Below, in pieces: positions 94 through 4,560 of a stretch of DNA of 7,896 nt. A program made the position numbers and the translations under genes. Position 1 is the first letter of the stretch. Each line of letters starts with the position of its first letter. Under the pieces are notes generated by a model, which did not search any database, had not been told where the DNA came from, and worked only from the letters and a program-made list of their open reading frames with translations. The stretch comes from Candidatus Hydrogenedentes bacterium CG07_land_8_20_14_0_80_42_17 (GTDB lineage: Bacteria > UBA8481): positions 1 to 7,896 of the forward strand of contig PEWQ01000001.1 of the NCBI GenBank assembly GCA_002780065.1. The letters run 5' to 3'.

Positions 94-1296
94 ATGTCTA
101 AAGAGAGAATAGACCCAGTCAGTGCTGTTGCAGAGAAGGATTCTGTAGGGTGGACTCACGTGGCTAAATTGCGTCTAATACCACCTGAAAAACCTTTAAA
201 ACTTGAATTGGGCGGAAGACTTGCTCCGATAGATATTGAGTATGAAACTTACGGAAAACTTTCTCAGGACAAGGATAATGTAGTGCTTGTGGCTCATGCT
301 CTTTCCGGCGACGCGCATGCTGCGGGTTGGGATGCTGATGCAACTGAAAATTTCAGGAGCTGGCGACTCAATAAGCCTGGCTGGTGGGATTCTATTATTG
401 GCCCGGGAAAAGCGATTGATACTGACAGATTTTTTGTAATATGTCCTAATTGCGTCGGAAGTTGTTACGGCTCTACAGGTCCTTCTTCAATTAATCCTGA
501 AACCAATAAGCCTTACGGAATGTCGTTTCCGATGGTCACTGTTGAAGATTGGACTGAAATTGAAGGAAGACTGCTCGACCATTTAGGAATCAAAAAAATT
601 CATGCAATTATTGGAGGCTCTTTAGGCGGACAGCAAGCAATTGAGTTTGCTCTAAGATTTCCTGACAGAGTAGAGAAGAGCATTGTGCTTGCCGCGACGC
701 CTAGACTTTCTGCTCAGGGATTGGCTTTTAATGCTGTGGGAAGATACTGCATAATGAACGACCCGAATTTTAATGAAGGGAATTATTATGAGGGAGCAAA
801 ACCTGACAAAGGACTTGCGGCGGCCCGCATGCTCGCTCACATTACTTATCTTTCCGACGAGGGAATGCACGATAAGTTCGGAAGAAAATTATGGGATAAG
901 ACAGACTTCGAGGGTGGATTCGGAATTGAATTTGCGGTAGAGAGCTATCTAGATCATCAAGGCAGGGCATTTGTGAACCGATTTGACGCGAACAGTTATC
1001 TCTATATCACTCGCGCAATGGATTACTACGATGCCGCAGAAAGGTGGGGCGGTGGAGATTTAGTTAAAGCATGTTCGAAAATTAAATGCGATATGATGAT
1101 CGTCTCTTTCAGCTCGGATTGGCTCTATCCTCCTCATGAATGTAAACAGTTTTCACTCGCAATAACTGCAAATAGACATCCGGTTACTTACGTAAACGTT
1201 CCTTCACCGTACGGTCACGACTCATTTCTTGTCGAGACCGAAAGTGTTACCAGATTGGTAAAGCCGTTTCTCGAGTCGAAAAAGGAATCCGAATGA
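94..1296 (+). CDS. metX: Homoserine O-acetyltransferase MetX
   Basis: This cytoplasmic alpha/beta-hydrolase-fold enzyme moves an acetyl group from acetyl-CoA to homoserine, the committing step of methionine synthesis by the O-acetylhomoserine route. The 400-residue product is full length for the family. The catalytic triad is visible: nucleophile Ser176 in GGSLGGQQ, Asp342 in SSDWLYPP and His375 in GHDSFL. The family motifs HALSGDAHAAGW (68-79) and CVGSCYGSTGPSS (120-132) are intact. ATG 94 lies one base after the metY stop, and no strong ribosome-binding site precedes it, which suggests translational coupling. The 3' end overlaps metW by ATGA. Succinyl-CoA specificity (a MetX-type HST) is possible because acyl donor choice in this family depends on few residues; acetyl is inferred from the metY neighbour. 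Confidence 0.95.
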   Translation: MSKERIDPVSAVAEKDSVGWTHVAKLRLIPPEKPLKLELGGRLAPIDIEYETYGKLSQDKDNVVLVAHALSGDAHAAGWDADATENFRSWRLNKPGWWDSIIGPGKAIDTDRFFVICPNCVGSCYGSTGPSSINPETNKPYGMSFPMVTVEDWTEIEGRLLDHLGIKKIHAIIGGSLGGQQAIEFALRFPDRVEKSIVLAATPRLSAQGLAFNAVGRYCIMNDPNFNEGNYYEGAKPDKGLAAARMLAHITYLSDEGMHDKFGRKLWDKTDFEGGFGIEFAVESYLDHQGRAFVNRFDANSYLYITRAMDYYDAAERWGGGDLVKACSKIKCDMMIVSFSSDWLYPPHECKQFSLAITANRHPVTYVNVPSPYGHDSFLVETESVTRLVKPFLESKKESE

Positions 1297-2054
1297 AAGA
1301 CCTGCTCTCGATGATGCGCGCTTTTGTTTCGAAAAGCATGCAGTTCAAATTCGATCCTGCTCTTAAAGAAATAGATCTGGCAAAAATATTGAAAGATGGT
1401 TCTCTGCCTGTCAGTGGTTATGATGACGATTCTGAAGAGAATGCAAACTGCGAGCGATGGCAGGATAAAGTGATTGAAAATGAAATTCGCGAGGGCTCGT
1501 CCGTTTTGGATCTTGGGTGCGGCACTGGTGAACTATTAGAGAGATTGGTTAAACACAAAAAGGTTTTCGGGCAAGGCATTGAGATCGATGAAAAGTCTGT
1601 TGCATCTTGCGTTGAACGCGGAGTTGCAGTATTTCAGGCGGATCTTGACGAAGGCTTGAAAGGATTTCCTGACGGAAGTTTCGATTACGTAATTTTGGAG
1701 GAAACCCTTCCTACGCTCAAACAGCCTATGCGAGTGCTTACCGATATGCTGAGGGTTGGGAGCCGCGGCATTGTATCGTTTCCGAATTTCGGTTACTGGA
1801 AGATTCGATTGGCGCTTCTTATCGAAGGACGAATGCCTATCACTGAGCGGCTTTCAGCACCGTGGTTCAATACGGAAAATATCAGGCTTTTTACACTTCG
1901 CGATCTTTTTGATTGGGCTCAAAATGAAGGAGTGATTTTTGAAAAGAGTTTTGTATTGAACGGGAAGAGCTTCAGCCATCTGTCTGACAGAGACAATTTG
2001 TTAGCTGAAGAAGTTCTCGTTGTATTGAAGAAAAATAATAAGGAGAAAAAATAA
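1293..2054 (+). CDS. metW: MetW, methyltransferase-fold partner of MetX, with extended N-terminus
   Basis: MetW proteins have a SAM-dependent methyltransferase fold and are usually encoded directly after metX; they are linked to methionine synthesis, reportedly through MetX. The SAM-binding loop [10 protein letters not shown] is at residues 71-80, with the acidic strand end GIEID at 95-99. The MetW-typical stretch [20 protein letters not shown] (136-155), followed by [11 protein letters not shown] and [17 protein letters not shown] (189-205), identifies the family. The product has 253 residues against roughly 200 in typical MetW. The excess is about 60 residues at the N-terminus, including an acidic patch GYDDDSEEN (42-50). 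ATG 1293 overlaps the metX stop and has AAGGA at 1282-1286 six bases upstream, so this start and the extension look real. Confidence 0.92.
2040..2045 (+). promoter_or_regulatory. Ribosome binding site for cysK inside the end of metW
   Basis: AAGGAG lies eight bases before the ATG at 2054. It sits in the last codons of metW, whose TAA stop shares its final A with the cysK start (TAATG). This supports the chosen cysK start and coupled translation. Confidence 0.8.
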
Positions 2055-3004
2055 TGGCACGATTTTTTAAAGATAATTCTCTTTCGATAGGAAAAACTCC
2101 GCTGGTCAAGTTGAGCAGAATTCCTAATGACAGTGATGCAATGGTGTTAGCTAAGATCGAGGGAAGAAACCCTTCGTATTCTGTAAAATGCAGAATCGGA
2201 GCGGCTATGATTTGGGATGCTGAAGATAAAGGATTTTTAAAACCGGGAGTAAATGTTGTTGAGCCTACGAGCGGAAATACCGGAATTGCTCTAGCTTTTG
2301 TTTGCGCTTCAAGAGGCTACGGTTTAACACTGACAATGCCTGAGACGATGAGCATAGAGCGCAGGCGAATATTGAAAGCATTCGGAGCAAACTTAGTTTT
2401 GACGCCTGGAAGCGAAGGGATGAAAGGTGCGGTTCGAAAGGCAGAAGAGATTGTTGCTGATGATCCCAAAAAATGGTTTATGCCTCAGCAATTCAAGAAC
2501 CCTGCGAATCCTGCGATTCACGAAAAAACTACAGGCCCCGAGATTTGGGATGATACTGACGGAAAGGTTGACGTTTTCATTTCAGGAGTAGGAACCGGAG
2601 GAACAATCACTGGAGTTTCCAGATATTTTAAAAAGACAAAAAATAAAAACGTTCTTTCTGTTGCTGTCGAGCCTGCGGCCAGTCCTGTGATTTCACAAAA
2701 ACTTGCCGGTAAAGAACTCAAGCCGTCAAGCCATAAGATTCAGGGCATCGGCGCAGGATTTTTACCTGACGTACTTGATTTGTCTATTGTGGACAGAGTC
2801 GAACGAATTAGCGACGACGAAGCTATCGAGATGTCGAGAAGGCTTACCGGTGAAGAAGGAATTCTATCCGGAATTTCGTCCGGCGCGGCAGTAGTCGCAG
2901 CAATTCGAATTGCTCGGGAAGATGAATTCAAAGGAAAAACTATTGTTGTTATTCTGCCGGACTCTGGAGAAAGATACCTCTCGACATCGCTCTTTGCAGA
3001 ATAA
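2054..3004 (+). CDS. cysK: Cysteine synthase A (O-acetylserine sulfhydrylase)
   Basis: This PLP-dependent cytoplasmic enzyme joins sulfide to O-acetylserine to give cysteine and acetate. The 316-residue product is complete and close to enterobacterial CysK in length and wording. PLP lysine Lys45 lies in [13 protein letters not shown]. The substrate-binding loop TSGNTG is at 72-77 and the phosphate-binding loop GVGTGGT at 178-184. GIGAGF is at 231-236, GISSG at 273-277 supplies the serine that contacts the pyridine nitrogen, and [10 protein letters not shown] is at 301-310. The PETMSIERR segment (96-104) is like CysK. The gene closes the metY-metX-metW operon with a one-base overlap. No serine acetyltransferase gene is in the window, so the source of O-acetylserine must be elsewhere. 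Confidence 0.95.
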
Positions 3005-4258: not shown

Positions 4259-4286
4259 TAAAGTTCTAAAGAATGTCTGCCGATAT
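4259..4286 (+). promoter_or_regulatory. Sigma-28 (FliA/SigD) type flagellar-class promoter
   Basis: TAAAGTTC at 4259-4266 is separated by 12 bases from GCCGATAT at 4279-4286. The sigma-28 consensus is TAAA(GTTT), about 15-16 bases from TAAA, then GCCGATAA in enterics or GCCGATAT in Bacillus SigD. Here the gap from TAAA to GCCGATAT is 16 bases and the -10 box is an exact match. It points at the small YjfB-like gene, with an expected transcript start near 4293. The gene's proposed motility role independently supports the call. Confidence 0.8.
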
Positions 4287-4304
4287 AAGGAAAAGCCATA
4301 TTAG

Positions 4305-4322
4305 TCGCCGGAATTGCGGCGG
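4305..4322 (+). other. Leader hairpin in the 5' UTR of the small motility gene
   Basis: CGCCG (4306-4310) pairs with CGGCG (4317-4321) around a six-base loop, extended by one T-G pair. It lies between the predicted sigma-28 transcript start and the Shine-Dalgarno site at 4329, and could stabilise the mRNA or tune translation. The stem is short and no function is shown. Confidence 0.45.
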
Positions 4323-4328
4323 GAAGAC

Positions 4329-4335
4329 GGAGGAG
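4329..4335 (+). promoter_or_regulatory. Ribosome binding site that decides the start of the small motility gene
   Basis: GGAGGAG ends 11 bases before ATG 4347. An in-frame TTG at 4314 lies upstream of this site and inside the leader hairpin, and an in-frame GTG at 4338 is only two bases away. ATG 4347 is therefore the best-supported start, although the spacing is slightly long. Confidence 0.7.
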
Positions 4336-4346
4336 TTGTGGACGGG

Positions 4347-4514
4347 ATGAATGTTAGCGGTTTGTCAAGTTTGGATTCGATTTATTCAAGTAATGCTGAC
4401 AATGCAAATAGTGAGGTCGGTGTTAAGGTTTTGAAGGAAGCAATGAATCAGGCGGCAGAGTCAGTTCTTCCGCTTCTGGAAGGTCTCGGTCAGAACTTGG
4501 ATGTAACGGCATAA
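4347..4514 (+). CDS. YjfB-like putative motility protein (55 aa)
   Basis: The product is a small 55-residue soluble protein. It has a polar, Ser/Asn-rich N-terminus (MNVSGLSSLDSIYSSNADNA) and then an amphipathic helical half with VGVKVLKEAMN (24-34) and LPLLEGLG (41-48). This layout matches the YjfB-type putative motility family: a short N-terminal segment, then a V-x-VLK-x-AM helix and a hydrophobic C-terminal segment. The biochemical role of the family is unknown to me. There is no signal peptide or membrane segment. A sigma-28 promoter stands directly upstream and a strong terminator follows, so it is a one-gene transcription unit expressed with late flagellar genes. An in-frame TTG at 4314 would add 11 residues but lies before the ribosome-binding site. 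The family assignment is from pattern recognition of a short protein; the promoter makes it more credible. Confidence 0.72.
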   Translation: MNVSGLSSLDSIYSSNADNANSEVGVKVLKEAMNQAAESVLPLLEGLGQNLDVTA

Positions 4515-4526
4515 AGGTTATGGCGG

Positions 4527-4560
4527 GGCGGATGTGCTCTCCGCGCGCATCCGCCTGTTT
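4527..4560 (+). terminator. Strong intrinsic-type terminator after the small motility gene
   Basis: GGCGGATGTGC (4527-4537) pairs with GCGCATCCGCC (4545-4555) over 11 base pairs with a single G-U, around the seven-base loop TCTCCGC. TGTTTC follows, and a longer T-rich stretch lies at 4570-4590. It starts 12 bases after the stop codon and separates the sigma-28 unit from the yajQ operon. Confidence 0.85.

Follow-up and report, generated by a model that had tools for sequence, protein, structure and literature searches.

A probable late flagellar gene of the YjfB family behind a predicted sigma-28 promoter in a Candidatus Hydrogenedentes genome

A small gene of 55 codons, located at 4347..4514 on the plus strand of contig C174, can very probably be counted among the late flagellar genes as a member of the YjfB family, since its promoter has the same form as those of the flagellin, filament-cap and FlgM genes of its genome. 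The window, i.e., the whole stretch of DNA that was analysed, is this contig at its full length of 7896 bases and belongs to an assembly of 2.39 Mb in 207 contigs, which is estimated to be 87% complete. A predicted sigma-28 promoter, a ribosome binding site, an open reading frame (ORF) of the YjfB family and a terminator together make up what reads as a monocistronic gene of the late flagellar class (class 3). The identification of the gene as a sigma-28-driven YjfB member is made with high confidence, and the protein adds a new member to this known family.

Architecture of the locus

Sigma-28 drives late flagellar genes. The putative sigma-28 (FliA/SigD-type) promoter occupies positions 4259..4286 of the plus strand and consists of the -35 element TAAAGTTC (4259-4266), a 12-base spacer (4267-4278) and the -10 element GCCGATAT (4279-4286). 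It lies 60 bases ahead of the ATG at 4347, and transcription is expected to start at about 4292-4294. Counted from TAAA, the site has a spacer of 16 and fits a promoter of the sigma-28 regulon, the published SigD motif being TAAA-N15-GCCGATAT (PMC5200910). The pattern TAAA-N14..17-GCCGATA occurs once in the window, compared with 0.04 occurrences expected from dinucleotide shuffles. A Shine-Dalgarno sequence, GGAGGAG, is located at 4329..4335 (plus strand), and a predicted intrinsic terminator hairpin of 12 pairs, eight of them G-C, follows the gene at 4526..4556 (plus strand). The folding of this hairpin is stronger than expected from shuffled sequence (z -2.98; 0/200 shuffles as good), while its T-tract (GTTTCTAATA) is weak. 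All of these elements, which had been proposed from the sequence alone in the original prediction, were recovered in the base-level check, and the terminator stem is real.

The 5′ leader (4287..4346, plus strand) had additionally been described as carrying a hairpin. A 5-bp inverted repeat, CGCCG-N6-CGGCG, is indeed present at 4306-4321, but the minimum-energy structure does not contain it, and the leader as a whole is no more stably folded than its shuffles (z -0.61). The hairpin is thus probably incidental, and a regulatory role for it was rejected. The start codon may be either the ATG at 4347 or an alternative in-frame GTG at 4338. The latter would yield a product of 58 aa beginning with MDGMNVSG, similar to the MDGVSG with which the closest relative begins, and its spacing to the GGAGG is short.

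The gene stands alone between housekeeping genes, in the surroundings that had been described: to the left lies an adenosine deaminase gene on the minus strand, and to the right genes for DUF520 (YajQ), a RimO-like radical SAM protein, a CDP-alcohol phosphatidyltransferase and PgpA. The claim that the gene lies away from any flagellar cluster holds only as far as the 7.9-kb contig of this fragmented assembly extends. Its counterpart in the same-order relative G001 is found about 3 kb from flgM and about 8 kb from a flagellin gene. Elsewhere in the window (94-3004), a metX-like acyltransferase gene, metW and a PALP cysteine-synthase-like gene follow each other, the stop codon of one gene overlapping the start codon of the next at ~1293 and ~2054, and these three genes likely form an operon.

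Membership in the YjfB family

The window protein matches the Pfam family YjfB_motility (PF14070) with an E-value of 2.5e-5 and a score of 24.7 bits. A YjfB-like protein had been predicted, and the match supports this, although the score falls just under the curated cut-off of 27 bits. The family proteins of G001 (32.6 bits) and G019 (29.1 bits) score above this cut-off, and the G001 protein is 41% identical to the window protein over its whole length. An alignment of 19 members reveals a conserved central helix with the pattern V-x-V-x-K-K-A-L-D and a conserved C-terminal G-x-x-(L/I/V)-D-(I/V)-x-A/V. The window protein carries the corresponding core VGVKVLKEAM and the C-terminal LGQNLDVTA, and its size is that of a small protein of the family type (about 55-70 aa). 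It thereby shares with the family, including B. subtilis YjfB, the length, the central helix and the terminal G-x-x-L-D-I-x-A, and the family and the window gene have in common their occurrence in flagellated genomes and a predicted sigma-28 promoter, found in several lineages. The window protein differs in its score, in the deep lineage from which it comes and in the solitary position of its gene among housekeeping genes.

A single-sequence AlphaFold model of the window protein comprises two helices (residues 4-20 and 23-54; pLDDT 76, pTM 0.36). Searching the PDB with this model by fold gave no match, and comparing the YjfB profile with the PDB by sequence gave no convincing solved relative.

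In the literature, a gene-neighbourhood analysis from 2024 places YjfB genes with sigma-28 and FapA, and the same study calls YjfB uncharacterised despite its naming as a motility protein (PMC11607428). In another paper, yjfB appears only in a table of rice-seedling-responsive genes. The original prediction mentioned an assignment of B. subtilis yjfB to the SigD regulon; a direct link of this kind was not found in the literature searched, where PMC11607428 offers the gene-neighbourhood association only.

Sigma-28 sites in the genome and at YjfB loci

The genome of the window (G000) encodes FliA (C131:14715-15392; 298 bits, over the FliA_WhiG cut-off), FlgM (30 bits) and seven flagellin-N proteins. 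The sigma factor and flagellar genes that a late flagellar assignment calls for are hence present. In its strict form, TAAAG-N14/15-KCCGATAW, the promoter pattern occurs at nine sites across the 2.39 Mb, as opposed to three for a reversed-pattern control. One site lies upstream of flaG, which is followed by a flagellin gene (C6; FlaG 79 bits), one 89 bases upstream of another flagellin gene (C108), one about 51 bases upstream of fliD (C90; FliD_N 85 bits) and one just upstream of flgM (C17). A fifth is the site upstream of the yjfB-like gene in the window (C174), and a sixth lies 37 bases upstream of an ORF of 54 codons (C136). The remaining three (C84, C186 and C199) have no recognisable same-strand gene downstream, and those on C186 and C199 fall inside coding sequence. 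A further flagellin gene, on C155, is preceded by TAAAT-N15-GCCGATAA.

In the genome scan, the looser TAAA-N14..17-GCCGATA shows no clear enrichment, with 17 sites in the genome and 10 in the control. The informative evidence comes only from the strict form of the pattern and from its position upstream of genes. Because sites of the same form precede flaG-flagellin, flagellin, fliD and flgM, the window promoter is read as the lineage's own form of the sigma-28 promoter. The yjfB-like gene shares with the flaG-flagellin, fliD and flgM class-3 units both TAAAG-N14/15-(G/T)CCGATAW and a similar distance to the gene. It differs in that these units encode known filament or regulatory proteins, whereas YjfB belongs to a poorly understood family.

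The site on C6 is followed by flaG and then the flagellin gene on the same strand (G000:C6:30007-31163), and the two genes probably form an operon. Some flagellin genes of G000 have no obvious sigma-28 box in their upstream regions when these are inspected by eye. Flagellin upstream regions on G000:C161, G000:C93 and G001:C143 instead show, by eye, sigma-70-like TTGAC-like and TATAAT-like hexamers in place of the box, so the flagellins may be under the control of two sigma factors. The 54-aa ORF on C136 (G000:C136:8239-8464, loci L199 and L202; MTRGIEEVIEHINKRIEALESELKKLDEVRQG...) is preceded by GGGGAGG, and a search against Pfam gave no match for it. Its relative in G001 (C59, ~13700; L204:1497-1668) is 37% identical over 35 aa (E 0.001) and has TCAAG-N15-ACCGATGT in its upstream region. 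Both ORFs lie in similar neighbourhoods, where a PHP-type gene (VDLHTHTTASDG) and a divergently oriented gene of ~410 codons are found, and they possibly represent an undescribed late flagellar small protein.

Across 386 genomes, PF14070 matches were found in 20, spread over the domain; the match in G228, located within an FtsK-like protein, was rejected as false, leaving 19 genomes from 14 families. All 19 encode both flagellin and FliA, compared with 156/386 and 169/386 genomes overall (hypergeometric p of 2e-8 for flagellin and 8e-8 for FliA; ~3e-6 for flagellin when counted over the 14 families only), and 17 of the 19 encode FlgM. YjfB accordingly occurs in flagellated organisms; it is nevertheless not a core flagellar component, because most flagellated genomes lack it. 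By eye, on the basis of translations, YjfB genes are mostly surrounded by non-flagellar neighbours, the G001 gene being the exception.

The 200 bases before each YjfB start were scored against a fixed sigma-28 consensus. Thirteen of the 19 loci scored above their own shuffles (p < 0.05), and a near-consensus box (score >=10) was present at seven of the 19, as opposed to one of 191 neighbouring genes. The excess persists when the window is left out (p 1e-6). Strong boxes were found in G064, G111, G205, G376 and G383, all from lineages distant from that of the window, and no box was recognisable within 200 bases upstream in G019, G042, G110, G153, G234 and G307. These results agree with the earlier proposal that the promoter supports a motility role for the family. 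Together with the same-genome promoter form, the PF14070 match and the presence of FliA and flagellins, they favour the reading of the window gene as a stand-alone late flagellar gene.

Possible roles of the YjfB protein

The mechanism is more tentative than the assignment. After FlgM export, FliA would transcribe the yjfB-like gene together with the genes for flagellin, FlaG and FliD. The least certain part of the proposal concerns the product, which would be a small and acidic protein of mainly helical structure with an accessory function at the filament stage. It would probably bind a filament protein, a chaperone or an export component by means of an amphipathic helix that is conserved and of the tail G-x-x-(L/I/V)-D-(I/V)-x-A at its C-terminus. 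Given a single-sequence model with a pTM of 0.36 and no PDB match, the basis for the mechanism is the timing of expression and the general anatomy, and a part in assembly, chaperoning or export is put forward as a possibility held with less than even confidence.

A somewhat less probable reading, and itself unlikely, is that the product is exported via the flagellar type III apparatus, either as a minor component of the filament or cap or as a secreted protein. Expression timed with the filament suits this, as does the composition of the first 20 residues, where YjfB members contain on average 0.6 Lys/Arg (2.7 in neighbouring genes) and 12 Ala/Ser/Thr/Asn/Gln/Gly (6.4 in neighbouring genes). 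However, since flagellar export signals have no strict consensus, this N-terminal composition is weak evidence and not diagnostic, and comparing the profile with that of the C-terminal region of flagellin gave a probability of 1%.

A role at the sigma-28 step, as a second FlgM-like anti-sigma factor, is far less likely still. YjfB resembles FlgM in being small, acidic, helical and apparently sigma-28-driven, and in G001 its gene lies near flgM; yet a comparison of the two profiles gave a probability below 1% (hhalign 0.07%), flgM is encoded elsewhere in G000, and a separate FlgM exists in nearly all YjfB genomes. At the level of candidate identities, an FlgM-like anti-sigma factor was rejected on this hhalign result, and a mimic of the flagellin D0 C-helix, suggested by the look-alike NQAAESVLPLL, was likewise rejected (hhalign probability 1.2%, 14 columns). 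The profile comparisons thus do not support a direct kinship of YjfB with either FlgM or the D0 helix of flagellin. It is scarcely credible that the promoter matches by chance and that the ORF is an ordinary small gene or a spurious one: at least two of the nine strict sites fall within coding sequence and the protein scores under the Pfam cut-off, but the site lies at a plausible distance from the gene, the same-order relative aligns from end to end with 41% identity, and YjfB loci of distant lineages repeatedly have the sigma-28 box.

The accessory-factor reading, extended to the family, would make YjfB a widespread factor that serves filament assembly or export, encoded by a gene that has dispersed to unrelated places in different lineages and has kept its own sigma-28 promoter, a picture that we hold only tentatively. 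The independent recurrence of this predicted promoter at scattered, mostly non-flagellar loci of several lineages speaks, at the promoter level, for a late flagellar role of YjfB. It singles out a protein of 55-60 aa and renders the late flagellar assignment of the family better founded and testable, and the analysis gives the predicted sigma-28 regulon of an uncultured lineage that branches deeply. If the proposed role is true, then, together with the second small ORF (G000 C136, G001 C59), it would mean that the late flagellar regulon holds overlooked small proteins.
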